Source: Sorangium cellulosum So0157-2 (GTDB lineage Bacteria > Myxococcota_A > Polyangia > Polyangiales > Polyangiaceae). Taken from it: a stretch of DNA of 64,000 bases. The notes under the pieces were generated by a model. It was given only the letters and a program-made list of their open reading frames with translations. It did no database searches and had not been told where the DNA came from. Both the position numbers and the translations under genes were made by a program. The stretch covers positions 9,748,001 to 9,812,000 of the forward strand of contig NC_021658.1 in the NCBI RefSeq assembly GCF_000418325.1, written 5' to 3'. Below are positions 3,812-37,887 of the stretch, one piece after another (the stretch's first letter is position 1; each line of letters opens with the position of its first letter).

Positions 3812-3956
3812 CTCCGTCCGAAAGCGCAGAATCTCGGACCACCGCCGATTCGACGGTGTCGGGCTCGGCTCGTCCTGTCGTGCGGTGTCGACGACGTCGC
3901 TGCGAGCCGCTTCGCCCCCGCCGCTCTGGATGAACCTCCCCCTTTACACCACCGTA

Positions 3957-4203
3957 GCGCCGGCGGGAGGGTCAGCGCGGCGGGGGCGGGTGGGCGCGGC
4001 GAGCACCGACCGAGGTGCCATAAGGTCCCCGTGGGCTCGGCGCTCCAGGCGCGCCTTGTGTGGCGCGCAACATAACGTCCCAGCTGGCATGGCCCGAAGG
4101 GAGACATGCCGGGCGGTGTTCTCAGCGCAAGCTCCACGCCGCCCGTCTTGGCGGCTGGCCGAGCGCCCACCCGCCCCCGCCGCGCTGACCCTCCCGCCGG
4201 CGC
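3957..4203. repeat. Long inverted repeat: two perfect 41-bp arms around a 165-bp centre
   Basis: The left arm is 3957-3997 and the right arm 4163-4203, an exact reverse complement over 41 bases; pairing fails immediately on either side. The element occupies most of the space between two converging genes (ends at 3811 and 4222), with the right arm ending 18 bp beyond the second gene's stop. The centre has no convincing reading frame. It could be a MITE-like element or a very long bidirectional terminator; no target-site duplication is obvious. Confidence 0.93.
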
Positions 4204-4221
4204 GGGCCACCCGCGCGGGTT

Positions 4222-10419: not shown

Positions 10420-11553
10420 GTGGACGACGAGGTCACGGGGACGCCGCCGCGCGCCGGTAGCACGGCGCGCAATGCCGCGGAGATCCGCGGGCGCATCGCC
10501 GCCTGCTTCAGCCTGGCCGAGCTGCGCCGCTTCGCAGAAGAGCTCGGCGTGCCGGACATCCCCTGGGACCGGGGGATGCAGGCAGCGGCGCACGAGCTCG
10601 TCCGCCGCTTCGAGCAGCGGCGCGAGCTCTGGTCGCTCGTCGAGCAGCTCCGCGCGGTGCGGCCGCTCGTGGAGTGGCCCGACATGCCGACGGTGCCGCC
10701 CGCCTCGTCGATCGCACAGGCGCCGGCGCACTCCGACATCCCGCGCCCGGCGCCGCTGCCGAACCTCGCGGGGCTGCCGGTCCCCTCGCCTCCCACCGAG
10801 GTCGCGACGCTGGCGCCGCCGCCCATCCCGCCGACCACACGGACGCCGACCGTCCCCACGCCGGAGCCCGCCGCGGCGCGGCCGCGCGGCGCCGCCGGGC
10901 AGGCGCGCCCGGCCGGCCCGCCGGGCGCCGCCGAGCGCGCGCCGGCCCGGGCCGCGCGCCGCGTCGATCCGCGGCTCCTGCTCGCCGCGCTGGGGCTCGT
11001 GGTGGCCAGCCTGGTCGTCGCCTTCCTGATCGGCCGGGCGTCGAGCGCGCCGGACGGCGAGGCGGCGGCCGCGCGCGCCGCGCGCGCCGCGCCCGCGAGC
11101 GCCGCGCCCGCGGCGCCGACGGCCGGCCGACCGGACGGGGTCGCGGCGCGCGCGGCCGCCGCGATCGAGCGCCGGATCGAGAGCGTGGCGCGGGCGTGCG
11201 AGATCCCGCCCGGCGCCGCGGACGACGTGATGCGCCGCGCCTTCGAGCGCTGCGGGCCGGCGCCCGCCCACGCGGCGCAGCGGACGGCCCCGGCGCAGGG
11301 GAGCGACGCGCCGGCGGCAGAGGTCCCGGCCGCTCGGCCGGACGCCCCCGGGGCGGCGCCGCGCGCGGCCGCCGCCAACGCGCCCGCCGGCGGCAACGCC
11401 GGGTGCGTGGGGGCGTGCGAGCGGAAGCACAAGGCGTGCAGGGCGACGCAATGCGGCAAGGAGCCCACGCAGGGCAGCCAGTACCAGCGCTACCAGAACT
11501 GCCTGTCGACGTGCCTGGAGCAGGCGTCCCGGTGCCGGCTCGGCTGCCTCTGA
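10420..11553 (+). CDS. Effector-associated-domain-like membrane protein with Cys-rich C-terminus
   Basis: 377 residues from GTG 10420. Residues 19-87 form a compact helical domain (FSLAELRRFAEELGVPD..., HELVRRFEQRRELWSLVEQL) that follows the pattern of bacterial effector-associated domains (death-like adaptors of STAND-linked conflict systems, EAD7-like by eye). Then a Pro/Ala-rich linker (90-180), one transmembrane helix (186-205, LLLAALGLVVASLVVAFLIG), an Ala-rich outer segment and a tail (329-377) with eight cysteines in CxxxC-like spacing. Expected topology: helical adaptor in the cytoplasm, Cys-rich domain outside. Neighbour: a divergent STAND-TPR ATPase. Family assignment is by pattern only. 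An ATG at 10363 is in frame but lies in the duplicated upstream segment. Confidence 0.7.
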   Translation: MDDEVTGTPPRAGSTARNAAEIRGRIAACFSLAELRRFAEELGVPDIPWDRGMQAAAHELVRRFEQRRELWSLVEQLRAVRPLVEWPDMPTVPPASSIAQAPAHSDIPRPAPLPNLAGLPVPSPPTEVATLAPPPIPPTTRTPTVPTPEPAAARPRGAAGQARPAGPPGAAERAPARAARRVDPRLLLAALGLVVASLVVAFLIGRASSAPDGEAAAARAARAAPASAAPAAPTAGRPDGVAARAAAAIERRIESVARACEIPPGAADDVMRRAFERCGPAPAHAAQRTAPAQGSDAPAAEVPAARPDAPGAAPRAAAANAPAGGNAGCVGACERKHKACRATQCGKEPTQGSQYQRYQNCLSTCLEQASRCRLGCL

Positions 11554-12421: not shown

Positions 12422-13828
12422 TCAGTCCGTGATCTTGAGCGCGCCGCTGTCGTCGAGCGCGCCGCTCGCGTCGGCGCCGTCCGAATCGGCCTCGACGTCC
12501 TCCTGGGACGTGGAGGGCCGCAGGAAGGACAGGTCGAGGCCGCCCATGGGCTGCTGCGCTGCCGCGCGCGCGGCGGCGAGGGGGATCGCGTCGGCCTCGC
12601 CCGCGCGGGGCGCGGCGCGGCGCTCGGCCTTCTCGGGGCGCGGCTCCTCGCGGCGCTCGGCCTTCTCAGGGCGCGGCTCCTCGCGGCGCGGAGCCTCGCG
12701 GCGCGCGCCTTTCGCGGCGTCGCGCCCGCGCGGCCGCTCCGGCGCGGGCGCCGCGGGCGCGGGCTCCGGCGTCCCCGCGCGCGCGGCCCCCGCGCGCGGG
12801 GACGCCGGGGTCCGGAGCCCCTTGGCCGCCTTCGCCATGCGCGCGCGCGTGCGGAACGAGGGGGCGTTCTTCGCGAGCTCGATGCAGCTGCCGCGCATGG
12901 CGCTCGGGCAGGAGATGCGCACGTGCATGTGGTCGTCGTGCGGCTCGGAGCCCGTCGGCTGCATCATGGCGAGCTGCGCGCGGACGAGCAGCGCGCGGGA
13001 GACGCCGATGCGCTTGGCGTGGGCGAGCAGCGCGTGCCGCAGCGGATCGGAGATGAAGATGTGGCTCACGTGGGCGCGGGGGTCGGTGAGCAGGTGCTGC
13101 ACGAGCAGCCAGTTGCGCGGCAGGTCGAAGCGCGCCCCGGGCAGGTTGGTCGAGGCGAGCCGGGCGTTGAAGCGCAGGAAGTACGGCGCGTGGACCTGCT
13201 TGCCGCGGCCGTCGAGCGCGTAGAAGCCGAGGTCGACGTCGCGGCCGCTCTCGTGGGAGTTGTGGCGGTGGACGTCGCCGCCGCGCTGGCGCGACAGGTC
13301 GCCGACCTCGAGCACGGCGCCCGGGAAGCGCTTGGCCACGCCGCGCGCCGCGCGCTCGATCATGCCGACGAGCGCCGGCAGCCCCCAGCGCACGTCGGCG
13401 TGGGCGTAGGCGGGCACGACGCGGATGTCCTTGCGCGAGGTGTCGAGCCGCACGCCGCCCTCGAGGTGCCCCTCGTTCGGGTGGCCGACCGACGCGGGGG
13501 GCGGCTTGGGCGCGGGCTTGGTCTTGGTCTTGGCCGGCTCGGTCGATCGCGGCCCGGCGCCGCCGGCGCGGGGGCGGTGGCCCTTGCCGATGTCGGTCGT
13601 GAGGCGCGCGCGCGGGGCGGCCGCGCGCGCGCGCGTGCCCGCGGCCCCGCGCGCCTTCTTCGAGCCCGCCGGCGCTCCTGCGCCGGAGCGCGCCTTCGAG
13701 CGCGCCGGCGCCTCCGCGGCAGAGCGCGCCTGCGAGCGCGCCGGGGCGTCCGGCGCCGCGGCGGCCGCCGGGGCGCTGGGCAAGGAGAGCGCCAGGATCG
13801 TGAACAGCACGGAGATCGGTCGAGGCAC
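12422..13828 (-). CDS. MepA-like (M74) murein endopeptidase with long low-complexity flanks
   Basis: 468 residues. Signal peptide 1-24 (VLFTILALSLPSAPAAAAA). A Lys/Arg/Ala-rich region (25-120) precedes the catalytic core (about 120-325). The core carries the M74 zinc motifs HNSHESGRDVDLGFY and EPHDDHMHVRISCP. Family known: penicillin-insensitive hydrolysis of D-Ala-meso-DAP cross-links in the periplasm. The C-terminal extension of about 140 residues contains repeats of REEPRPEKAER and an acidic end (EDVEADSDGADASGALDD), unlike E. coli MepA, which lacks such tails. It is downstream of the sigma-4/TPR gene on the same strand (gap 83 bp), so co-transcription is possible. Confidence 0.88.
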   Translation of the reverse strand: MPRPISVLFTILALSLPSAPAAAAAPDAPARSQARSAAEAPARSKARSGAGAPAGSKKARGAAGTRARAAAPRARLTTDIGKGHRPRAGGAGPRSTEPAKTKTKPAPKPPPASVGHPNEGHLEGGVRLDTSRKDIRVVPAYAHADVRWGLPALVGMIERAARGVAKRFPGAVLEVGDLSRQRGGDVHRHNSHESGRDVDLGFYALDGRGKQVHAPYFLRFNARLASTNLPGARFDLPRNWLLVQHLLTDPRAHVSHIFISDPLRHALLAHAKRIGVSRALLVRAQLAMMQPTGSEPHDDHMHVRISCPSAMRGSCIELAKNAPSFRTRARMAKAAKGLRTPASPRAGAARAGTPEPAPAAPAPERPRGRDAAKGARREAPRREEPRPEKAERREEPRPEKAERRAAPRAGEADAIPLAAARAAAQQPMGGLDLSFLRPSTSQEDVEADSDGADASGALDDSGALKITD

Positions 13829-21244: not shown

Positions 21245-21328
21245 CGCCGGCGCGCCGCCGCGCGATGTGCAGGCGCGTCGCTGCGCGGCGGCGCGCCGGT
21301 CTGGCACGGGCGATGCCGGTCCGGCGGC

Positions 21329-22525: not shown

Positions 22526-23968
22526 GTGCCGAAGCACACCAAGAAGGATCATAGGGAGGGCGCTCCGTCGGCGACGGGCGCACCGCAGCAGGCCTCCGCT
22601 GGGCGCAAGCTGTTCGGCACCGACGGGGTGCGCGGCGTGGCGAACCAGCCGCCGATGACGCCGGAGATGGCGCTGCGGCTCGGGCGCGCGATCGCCTTCG
22701 TCGCGAGCCACGGGAAGTCGCGGCAGGTGCGGGTGGTGATCGGGAAGGACACGCGGCTGTCCGGCTACATGCTGGAGACGGCGATCGCGTCCGGCGTGTG
22801 CGCGATGGGCGGCCGCGTGATGCTGAGCGGGCCGATCCCGACGCCGGCGGTCGCGCAGCTCACGCAGAGCATGCGGGCCGACGCCGGGGTGGTGATCAGC
22901 GCGAGCCATAACCCGTACCAGGACAACGGCATCAAGATCTTCGGGCCCGACGGCTACAAGCTGCCCGACTCCGCGGAAGAGGAGATCGAGCGGCTCATGG
23001 AGAGCCACGAGCTCGACGAGGCCCGGGTGGTGGGCTCGGCGATCGGCAGCGCGGTGAAGCTCGACGACGCGCGGGGGCGGTACGTCGTGTTCTGCAAGAG
23101 CACGTTCCCCACGGCGCTGTCGCTCGACGGCGTGAAGATCGTGGTCGACGCGGCGCACGGGGCGGCCTACCGCGTGGCGCCCTCGGTGTTCACCGAGCTC
23201 GGCGCGCAGGTGACCGCGCTCGGCGTGAAGCCGAACGGGCGCAACATCAACCGCGAGACGGGCGCGCTGCACCCGGAGCACGTGAAGGCCGAGGTGCTCA
23301 AGCGGGGCGCGGCGATCGGCATCGCGCTCGACGGCGACGCGGACCGGGTGATCATGGTCGACGAGCGCGGCGAGGTCGTGGACGGCGACGCGATCATGGC
23401 GCTCTGCGCGCTCAGGATGCTGCGCACCGGGAAGCTGCCGCGGAACACGATCGTGACGACGGTGATGTCGAACCTCGGCCTCGAGCGCGCGCTCAAGGCG
23501 CAGAACGGGCACGTGGTGCGGACGGCCGTCGGGGACCGCTACGTGGTGGAGGCGATGCGGAACGGCGGCTACTCGTTCGGCGGGGAGCAGTCGGGGCACC
23601 TCATCTTCCTGGACCACGCGACGACGGGCGACGGGATCGTGGCGGCGCTGCAGGTGCTCGCGATCATGATGGAGGAGGACAAGCCGCTGAGCGAGCTCGC
23701 GTCGAAGGCGATGCAGCGGGTGCCTCAGGTGCTGGAGAACGCGACGTTCTCGACGCGGCTGCCGCTCGACAGCATGCAGCGGACGCGGGTCGCGGTGGAT
23801 CGCATCGAGAAGACGCTCGGGGACAAGGGGCGCATCCTCGTGCGGTGGAGCGGGACGGAGCCGAAGCTGCGCGTCATGGTCGAGGGCGAGGACGCGTCGA
23901 CCATCGGGGCGTACGCGCTCGAGATCATCGAGGCGGCCAAGCAGGACGTGGCGGGGACCACGGCATAG
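22526..23968 (+). CDS. glmM: Phosphoglucosamine mutase
   Basis: 480 residues from GTG 22526, which follows cacgagagagggacc, a good Shine-Dalgarno; an ATG-like start 18 codons earlier lacks one. Hallmarks: [13 protein letters not shown], the phosphorylated Ser127 in [15 protein letters not shown], the metal loop [14 protein letters not shown], and sugar-binding [10 protein letters not shown]. It converts glucosamine-6-phosphate to glucosamine-1-phosphate for UDP-GlcNAc and peptidoglycan. The N-terminal 25 residues are a charged extension not present in most GlmM. Confidence 0.97.
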
Positions 23969-23977
23969 CCAGGGCTG

Positions 23978-24164
23978 CCCGGCCCCCGGAGAGGGTGTCC
24001 GCTGGGCCGGCCCGGCCCCCGGAGAGGGTGTCCGCTGGGCGGGGTGGGGGCCCCGCCGAACTCGGCGGAGATATGGAGCATCCGGCAAGCCGGATGCTCC
24101 ATATCTCCGCCTCAAACATCGGCCCATCCCCCACCCCGCCCAGCGGACACCCTCTCCGGGGGCC
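23978..24164. repeat. Nested palindromic element with an extra direct copy of its arm
   Basis: Outer arms of 37 bp (24014-24050 and 24128-24164) are exact reverse complements. Inside is a second perfect hairpin with 23-bp arms (24064-24086 and 24089-24111) and a 2-base loop. A 30-bp copy of the left outer arm also stands just before it (23978-24007 against 24011-24040, period 33). The element lies between the convergent ends of glmM and the ABC gene. A MITE-like or REP-type element is the likeliest reading; the structure would also fold into a long cruciform. Confidence 0.95.
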
Positions 24165-24194
24165 TACCGTTGTCCGAGGGATGCCCGGCGTCGG

Positions 24195-24234
24195 CTAAAG
24201 CGCGCGGCGCATGACTAAAGCGCGCGGCGCATGA
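24195..24234. repeat. 20-bp tandem duplication at the 3' end of the ABC ATPase gene
   Basis: Two identical 20-base units (24195-24214, 24215-24234) carry ctaaagcgcgcggcgcatga. On the minus strand the inner unit encodes the last residues FMRRAL and the stop; the outer unit repeats that sequence just past the stop. Confidence 0.95.
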
Positions 24235-25215
24235 AGAGGTCTTCCAGCGTCTCGCGACGCGGCGTCACCTCGACCACCTGCGCGCCCGCGGCGAGCGAGC
24301 GCTGGAGCACCTCGCGCACGCGCGCCTCGCCCTCGACGTCGACCACCACGACGTCGCCGCGGCGCGTGGTCGCGAAGCCCAGCGCGCCGAGCTCCTCGAG
24401 GAGCGAGTCGGGCGCGCCGGCCAGCATGACGTCGGTGCGCAGCACGTCGCCCCGGAGGAGCTGGCGGATCGCGCCGCTCACCACCACCTGGCCCTCGCGC
24501 AGGATCGCCACGCGATCGCACATCGCCTCGACGTCGCTCAGGATGTGCGTCGAGAAGAAGATCGTCCGGCCCTGATCGCGCTCCGCGAAGATGAGATCGC
24601 GCACCTCCTTGCGGCCCACCGGATCGAGGCCGCTCATGGGCTCGTCCAGGATCAGCATCTCGGGATCGGCGACCAGCGCGGCGGCCAGCCCCGTGCGCTG
24701 CAGCATCCCCTTCGACAGCCGGCGCACCTGCCGATCCGCGGCGTACGCGATCTTCACCTGATCGAGCACCTCCATCGTCCGCCGGCGCAGCGAGGCGCCG
24801 CGCATCCCGGACAGGCGGCCGCAGAGCTCCACGAACTCGCGCGGGGTGAGGTAGGGGTAGACGTACGGGTTCTCCGGCAAGAAGCCGATCTTCCGGCGCG
24901 CCTCGGGCGACGGGACGCGCGCGCCGAACAGGTACGCCTCGCCGCCGGTCGGGGCGATGAGGCCCGTCAGCATCTTGATCGTCGTCGTCTTGCCGGCGCC
25001 GTTCGGCCCGAGGAAGCCGAAGATCTCGCCGCGGCGCACGCCGAAGCTCACCCCCTTGACCGCCTCGACCGCGCGCCGGCGCAGGAAGCCCACCCGGAAC
25101 GTCTTCAGCAGGCCGCGGACGTCGATCAGCAGCTCGCCGCCCGGCGCCTCCCCGCCGGAGCGGGACGGTGCGGCGCGGTCGCCGCGCTCCTCGACCATCG
25201 CCTCGACACCGCCGC

Positions 25216-25219
<4 letters not shown>
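24215..25219 (-). CDS. ABC transporter ATP-binding protein (ABC-2/NatA type)
   Basis: 334 residues. Walker A is GPNGAGKTT, the signature loop is RRLSKGMLQR (LSKGM in place of LSGGQ), Walker B is LILDEPMSGLDP and the switch His is in FFSTHILSD. An accessory C-terminal domain of about 90 residues is typical of ABC-2 exporters of the CcmA/NatA group. The N-terminus has a 30-residue disordered leader. The start overlaps the end of the upstream regulator by four bases (25216-25219). No permease is in the window on this side, so its membrane partner must be encoded elsewhere. Confidence 0.92.
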
Positions 25220-37141: not shown

Positions 37142-37887
37142 ATCGTGACGCGGGGGGGCGCGGGAGTAGCGGCGGCGGGCGCCGCCGCAGCGGCGGACGG
37201 CGCCGCAGCGGCGGACGGCGCCGCAGCGGCGGACGGCGCCGCAGCGGCGGCGGGCGGAGCAGGCTTCGGCTCGGGCGAGGTCACCTTCGTCTCCTCCGCG
37301 GGCGCGGGCGCGGACGCCGCGACAGACGCGGGTGCTGCGGGAGCGGGAGCCGCCGGGGGCGGCGGCGCTTCCGGCGCGGGGGGCGCAGCCGCAACGGGCG
37401 GCGCTGCCGGGGCAGGCGCGCTGGGCGCGGGCGCGGGCGCAGGCTCGCGCGGGGTCGCGGCGACCACCGGCTCCGGAGCCGGCGCCTGGGGCGCTGCGAC
37501 GGGAGCGGCGGGCGGCGGCGGAGCGGCGCGACGGACCGGCGCTTCCTCCTGGGCAGCGCGCTCGGGCGGCGGGGATGCCGGAGCGGACGCAGCCATAGGC
37601 CGAGAGGGCGCCGGCTCCGGAGCGGCGCGCACGGGCGCCTCGGCCGGCTCGGGCTCAGCCCCGGGCCGGGCGCGGCGCTTCACGACGGTCGGACGGATCC
37701 GCTCCTCCACCACCTCAGGCGACTTCTGTCGCTCGAGGTGCCGCTTAACCCGCTCGACGACGTCGGACTCGACGGCGCTCATGTGGTTGCGCACGTCGCC
37801 TATACCCATGGACTGGAAGAGCGCGACCAGCGTCTTCTGGTCCATGTTCAACTGCTTGGCGACCTCGTAGACCCGGACTTTGCTCAT
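37138..37887 (-). CDS. infB: IF-2 N-terminal domain encoded in a separate, overlapping frame
   Basis: 249 residues. The first 60 are the IF2 N-terminal domain (SKVRVYEVAKQLNMDQKTLV, ALFQSMGIGDVRNHMSAVE); the rest is a Pro/Ala/Glu-rich linker. It ends PPRVTM and TGA at 37138-37140, and the main IF-2 frame starts at 37141 in another register. Other myxobacterial IF-2 proteins, as I recall them, are one continuous chain of about 1000 residues. A seven-G run at 37152-37158 lies 12 bases before the junction, where one added base would restore fusion. So this is either a homopolymer error or a real split with GTGA coupling. Confidence 0.85.
   Translation of the reverse strand: MSKVRVYEVAKQLNMDQKTLVALFQSMGIGDVRNHMSAVESDVVERVKRHLERQKSPEVVEERIRPTVVKRRARPGAEPEPAEAPVRAAPEPAPSRPMAASAPASPPPERAAQEEAPVRRAAPPPPAAPVAAPQAPAPEPVVAATPREPAPAPAPSAPAPAAPPVAAAPPAPEAPPPPAAPAPAAPASVAASAPAPAEETKVTSPEPKPAPPAAAAAPSAAAAPSAAAAPSAAAAAPAAATPAPPRVTM
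37184..37255. repeat. 18-bp coding tandem repeat in infB
   Basis: Three exact units (37184-37201, 37202-37219, 37220-37237) of gccgcagcggcggacggc and a degenerate fourth encode an Ala/Pro/Ser repeat in the IF-2 linker. It sits only 26 bases from the G-run where the reading frame breaks. Confidence 0.93.

Follow-up and report, generated by a model that had tools for sequence, protein, structure and literature searches.

The palindrome behind glmM in Sorangium cellulosum So0157-2 is one copy of a family of nested palindromes, here called family A, whose members are probably non-autonomous mobile elements of the genus Sorangium that live at the 3' ends of genes. The window, that is, the whole stretch of 64,000 nucleotides which was analysed, also holds a member of a second palindromic family, called B.

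Anatomy and distribution of the two families

The sequence-only reading of the glmM site had described 37-bp outer arms, 23-bp inner arms with a 2-base loop, a direct 30-bp copy of the outer arm upstream and a location between convergent gene ends. The arm and loop lengths are all exact. Both pairs of arms are perfectly complementary, and the outer ones can be extended inwards to 46 nt at 91% complementarity. The direct copy is also present, with 31 of 31 bases identical between 23977-24007 and 24010-24040 at a period of 33, and the two neighbouring genes do converge on the element (Table 1). The two arm sets had been taken as a nested double palindrome. Both sets are real, but they are not independent palindromes, as they are joined by a conserved and partly unpaired core formed by two internal loops and a 5-bp helix. 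The secondary-structure check that had been proposed gave an RNA fold of -183.9 kcal/mol (z = -16.7). A chance origin of the inverted repeats was ruled out by order-2 Markov controls: 7 of 8 order-2 shuffles of the window lacked perfect inverted repeats of at least 16 bp, and the remaining one reached no more than 16 bp.

Table 1. Coordinates of the glmM-site copy of family A, its neighbouring genes and the family B element (positions in the window)
Feature	Position	Strand	Remarks
B-family element with tails; palindrome 3957-4203	3951..4216	-	sense, 18 nt behind stop of - strand gene
glmM (phosphoglucosamine mutase)	22526..23968	+	TIGR01455, 591 bits against a cut-off of 448; stop at 23968, element behind
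5' tail GGGCTGCCC, family consensus TGCCGAGCTGCCC	23972..23980	+	precedes duplicated arm
33-bp unit (tail end plus first part of outer arm), 1.9 tandem copies	23977..24040	+	extra copy is the "duplicated arm"
Outer stem, 5' arm, 37 bp perfect	24014..24050	+	
Core, 5' strand: loop CCCC, helix GCCGA, loop ACTC	24051..24063	+	conserved
Inner palindrome, loop AA between arms 24064-24086 and 24089-24111	24064..24111	+	
Core, 3' strand: loop TCAAACA, helix TCGGC, loop CCAT	24112..24127	+	conserved
Outer stem, 3' arm	24128..24164	+	
3' tail TACCGT, family consensus TACSGT	24165..24170	+	
ABC-transporter ATP-binding protein (ATPase) gene, convergent neighbour	24215..25219	-	gene end at 24215

The tandem 33-bp duplication was not seen in the orthologous copies L096 and L142 when the sequences were compared. 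At L115, L120, L126, L127 and L128, too, part of the 5' arm is repeated in tandem upstream of the element, as in the window copy. Other repeats occur in the window. At 24195-24234, where the convergent ABC-transporter gene has its 3' end, a 20-bp unit, CTAAAGCGCGCGGCGCATGA, is present twice in perfect tandem, so that the gene end and its stop codon are duplicated, and at 1133-1408 a 32-bp unit is repeated 8.6 times in tandem with 99% matches. More perfect inverted repeats, with arms of 17-21 bp, lie at 11062-11162, 12766-12808, 21247-21299 and 37470-37623; these were rarer in the Markov controls.

A BLAST search of the Sorangium cellulosum So0157-2 genome (G000), whose size is given as 14,782,125 bases in the part of PMC3696898 consulted, matched the element at many places, and a covariance model was built from 8 copies. 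In this genome family A occupies 22 distinct places, 12 on the + strand and 10 on the - strand; the model returned 40 rows, since most places were matched on both strands. The sequence-only reading had proposed a family of dispersed palindromes at 3' ends, to be given up if the genome held no further copies. As further copies were found by the genome-wide search, this objection falls, and the 22 places together with 13 B-type copies in the sequences read support the proposal. Among 39 genomes, in each of which at most 75 candidates were scored, the model matched at E ≤ 1e-4 in 6 of 6 Sorangium genomes and in none of the 33 other genomes from the family and order; copy numbers per genome from this search are to be read as at least the number counted. 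Over the genus there are at least 90 distinct places, 81 of which were read in detail: 20 fetched copies and the window copy of the 22 in G000, 15 of 15 in G001, 20 of 20 in G003, 20 of 23 in G004, 4 of 8 in G005 and 1 of 2 in G002. A core pattern searched over 84,980 species genomes matched 22 stretches; 15 of them are in Sorangium records, and the 7 elsewhere lack the nested-palindrome fold. Judging from these searches, real family A matches appear only in Sorangium, a soil bacterium, among all those species genomes.

All copies follow the layout tail, long stem, conserved core, second stem, core and tail, over about 150-165 nt, with an outer stem of 34-44 bp and an inner stem of about 23 bp. 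Rfam gave no match over the gathering cut-off in the window; below it, 13 of 15 matches were to microRNA precursor models, which fit long hairpins in general. Literature searches turned up no account of a palindrome family of this kind in Sorangium, and the word Sorangium is absent from PMC3733652, PMC12306157 and PMC6006769.

The palindrome at 3957-4203, which had been reported together with the glmM element, is real and has 41-bp perfect arms with 165 nt between them. Among the sequences read there are thirteen recognisable B copies; both neighbours were called for 11 of them, and 9 of these 11 lie in sense behind the upstream gene. In four cases (L115, L121, L138 and L146) a B-type palindrome shares one intergenic region with an A copy. 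The two elements of the window had been described as weakly similar. They belong to separate families whose arms are loosely alike, but the unpaired tails on both sides are common to them beyond chance. On the A profile (TGCCGAGCTGCCC) the B 5' tails scored a mean of +3.4 against -10.5 at random positions, in a single register only, and the B 3' tails scored -0.7 against -6.9; for neither tail did any of 20,000 resamplings reach the observed mean. B, which shares both tails and the position behind genes with A, is a sister family of it. In addition, the 5' tail motif of A can be matched to the 5' strand of its core, scoring +1.9 at one register and -5 to -17 at the others, and this repetition of the motif around the inner stem suggests that the nested element may be one tail-stem-tail unit lodged inside another.

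Position behind stop codons, shared sites and decay

Genes at the 80 fetched loci were called with a simple codon-usage caller, which together with the window copy made 81 copies examined. None of these 81 lies inside a called gene. Forty-one are between convergent genes, 26 are co-directional in sense, 6 co-directional in antisense and 5 between divergent genes, while 3 have one side uncalled. Whether copies cluster at convergent 3' ends had been put up for testing: convergence as such is not the rule (41 of the 78 copies with both neighbours called), but 67 of these 78 stand in sense orientation just behind the upstream stop codon. The median distance from stop codon to palindrome start is 33 nt, and it is 100 nt or less in 60 of the 67 sense copies. 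Gene order in convergent pairs favours neither side; even so, the A copy was closer to the gene that it follows in sense in 37 of 41 pairs (binomial p = 1e-7).

This arrangement is part of the evidence for mobile elements, but selection on an RNA would also yield a fixed orientation behind stop codons. Family A would then be a cis-acting RNA of the mRNA 3' end (a terminator, an RNase barrier or a translation regulator), its pairing being kept by compensatory mutation and its mobility being secondary, which we regard as unlikely although deserving real weight. The sense orientation a few tens of nucleotides behind stop codons, the conserved unpaired core loops and a slight T enrichment in the first 12 nt past the hairpin (24-30% against about 13% further on, in the 77 of 81 copies profiled) are all in agreement with it. 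However, there is no T tract: TTTT occurs within 30 nt in 5 of 77 copies, the GC-rich hairpin followed by a T tract of an intrinsic terminator is not what A presents, and a terminator-like site was not called at the window copy. Moreover, the site of copy L080 is held in three relatives by 13-17 bp with no hairpin.

Mobile palindromes, the reading that we prefer, are suggested by near-identical palindromes at unrelated loci (L080 and L081, 98.8%; L115 and L116, 97.5%). The L080 site is occupied in the own genome, and G001, G002 and G004 are the relatives with the short stretch between the convergent stop codons, its lengths being measured by eye. In G003 the site carries other sequence and in G005 a collapsed hairpin between recognisable tails. 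No clean empty site was recovered that would show exact breakpoints or a target duplication; at the L080 site, the sole one compared, no target-site duplication is visible and the breakpoints are not exactly alignable. Many A sites are common to several species, including the glmM site (the window copy, L096 and L142 being the same site), and part of family A has therefore been vertically inherited.

Collapsed or truncated relics with intact tails were also found behind stop codons in the own genome. A strict pattern for collapsed copies matched 2 places, both in the own genome, against 1 match for a reversed control pattern. A search for the 5' tail by itself, allowing 3 mismatches at most, was at chance level (146 matches, against 137 for the reversed control). 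Among its matches with 0-2 mismatches, 26 of the 28 listed were read; 8 are outside genes and 6 of these are A relics by reading. Decay would proceed by internal deletion, leaving a mini-hairpin between intact tails. As for the new copies, they would persist where they are harmless or, as their position might hint, could serve as a hairpin of the mRNA 3' end. With place and direction behind stop codons both fixed, targeted insertion or selection at the mRNA 3' end can be tested directly, and occupied, empty and collapsed orthologous sites exist.

Other palindromes were observed at the loci read. At L159 (G001), behind the ortholog of the L081 gene, a different nested palindrome with arms GAGCGGCGGTCACCCGC and GCGGGTGACCGCCGCTC stands directly behind the same stop codon. 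At L179, L180, L110 and L134 there is another dispersed inverted repeat, intergenic and A+T-richer, with CGCAAAGGCGCAAAGACGC or GCCAAGACGCCAAGGA units.

Concerted evolution of the arms

The arm sequences differ widely between A copies, and only the feet are conserved from copy to copy. Despite this, in the 8-copy alignment 99.1% of the cells pair, both sides have changed in 33 of 70 pairs and one pair varies on a single side; covariation is 0.460, against 0.110 after shuffling. The G-U count was made on 69 of the 81 copies (before the count, 10 had been excluded as belonging to a different subfamily or as poorly parsed, and 2 were skipped). It gave 2,634 Watson-Crick and 8 G-U among 2,642 pairs of the outer stem, and 1,500 Watson-Crick and 51 G-U among 1,551 pairs of the inner stem. 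The two arms thus change together and Watson-Crick pairing is kept, as in concerted arm evolution.

Thirteen comparisons of orthologous sites gave 123 mirrored changes against 70 of other kinds (32 one-sided, 31 G-U and 7 others). One-sided or G-U changes are present in 7 of the 13, so either the correction of the arms is not absolute or the alignment of the inner stem is imperfect. The six cleanest comparisons (window/L096/L142, L076/L097, L088/L104 and L099/L136), which were picked after seeing the result and three of which share sequences and are not independent, gave 61 mirrored, 3 one-sided and 0 G-U changes. Over the 13 comparisons, mirrored change per pair was 0.076-0.34, against a third-codon-position divergence of 0.12-0.34 in the upstream gene; by our own estimate, two independent neutral hits at a divergence of 0.13 are expected at well under 0.01.

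These data bear directly on the cis-acting RNA. Compensatory change in an RNA is expected to go by way of G-U pairs or mismatches and to lag behind neutral change, but G-U pairs, the usual intermediates, are nearly absent from the outer stem, and the rate of change at paired positions is close to that at third codon positions; DNA arm-to-arm copying is therefore favoured. As far as sequence comparison can tell, one arm is likely copied from the other at the DNA level, rather than the pairing being restored by RNA compensation. The arms would likely be held complementary by template switching between them in replication (quasipalindrome correction) or by arm-to-arm conversion, and the arm sequence would drift while the palindrome remains perfect. 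Core loops are unpaired in most copies, so that something selects for the loops; in the proposed mechanism this selection would hold both the unpaired core loops and the tails. In a few copies, e.g., L092, the first core loop is fully paired, which is what arm copying would produce.

The wide differences between arms also bear on a classical MITE, that is, an internally deleted DNA transposon whose terminal inverted repeats (TIRs), the outer arms, come from an autonomous element that has been lost or has escaped detection. Such an origin would fit the long TIRs, the lack of coding sequence and the number of copies, about 20 in each genome. Nevertheless, MITE TIRs are alike between copies, whereas the A arms covary and are unlike from copy to copy; the tails outside the palindrome are part of the unit, own-genome searches brought up nothing longer that has an ORF between arms of this type, and no target duplication was seen at L080, the one site compared. 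Altogether, we consider a MITE origin very improbable.

A variant of the mobile-element reading, which we hold to be rather doubtful, is that the identity of the element lies in its shape and not in its sequence: tails and core would define the unit, while the arms would be free and rewritten as mirror images, and units would nest. The copying of arm from arm would then belong to the life cycle, e.g., if the intermediate were a single-stranded, self-primed hairpin that always enters behind stop codons in the same direction.

In bacteria, long perfect palindromes should be unstable. In spite of this expectation, dozens of family A copies persist in each genome, several species share some of the occupied sites, and the arms are a natural record of how often a palindrome gets rewritten from its own other arm.

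Comparison with REP elements and other known systems

The foot of the hairpin reads CTAC on the sense strand (GTAG on the other) in 54 of the 70 A copies counted, out of 81, and TAC, TTAC or TCAC in most B copies. The possibility of a REP/RAYT link was revived by a protein search that found 4-10 RAYT-like genes per Sorangium genome. One of these proteins matched NCBIfam NF047646 (REP-associated tyrosine transposase) with E = 4.8e-18 and 65 bits, under the cut-off of 80, and a Pfam Y1_Tnp match was also below its cut-off; PF01797 had no own-genome match at E ≤ 0.001 and two weak ones in the genus. Neither A nor B was found within 2.5 kb of any of 20 RAYT-like loci (10 of 10 in G000, 9 of 9 in G004 and 1 of 8 in G001), which are flanked instead by AACCTGGGTC-type repeats, and the link was dropped as a consequence. 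This search yielded no mobilising enzyme for A, which counts against the mobile reading. These loci (L234-L253) apparently have a REP system of their own, many of them carrying AACCTGGGTC-type arrays in opposite orientation on the two sides.

That A is a GTAG-class REP mobilised by the Sorangium RAYT-like proteins is accordingly improbable, in spite of the tag at the foot and the presence of such proteins in every Sorangium genome searched. RAYT-like genes occur in 13 further genomes without A, none of the 20 RAYT-like loci read is flanked by A as a REP would flank its RAYT gene, and, in the portion of PMC3733652 consulted, GTAG REPs are units of 20-40 bp whose stems measure 5-13 bp and often contain G-T pairs. 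Family A resembles REP, BIME and REPIN elements with their RAYT (TnpA-REP) in being dispersed, extragenic, non-autonomous palindromes near gene 3' ends with a GTAG-like tag at the foot. On the other hand, relative to the REPs so described, it is four to five times longer and nested, its stems measure 37-44 plus about 23 bp, its arm sequence is free, G-U is nearly absent and there are about 20 copies per genome. By analogy, A may work in a REP-like manner, as a tagged hairpin moved in trans, yet it is not filed here as a REP. An enzyme supplied in trans could perhaps recognise the extruded hairpin by its tails and core and not by the arm sequence, as TnpA-REP does with a GTAG-tagged hairpin.

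The attC sites of integrons are recognised as folded single strands and have conserved unpaired bases and a free inner stem. Family A is similar in these last two properties, but its outer stem is about 40 bp, the loci read contain no cassette arrays, and the foot of its hairpin did not show the R-box consensus.

By description only, A can also be likened to bcr1 of the Bacillus cereus group, which in the part of PMC2267715 consulted is a chromosomal, structured repeat of about 150 bp, restricted to one species group and with the character of a mobile element. Finally, the palindromes of Nematomorpha lie inside animal mitochondrial genes, do not form a dispersed family and do not stand behind stop codons, unlike A. 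They are nevertheless long and perfect inverted repeats in which the arms differ from species to species and yet match each other, as in family A, and template switching has been proposed for them in the sections of PMC6649704 consulted.
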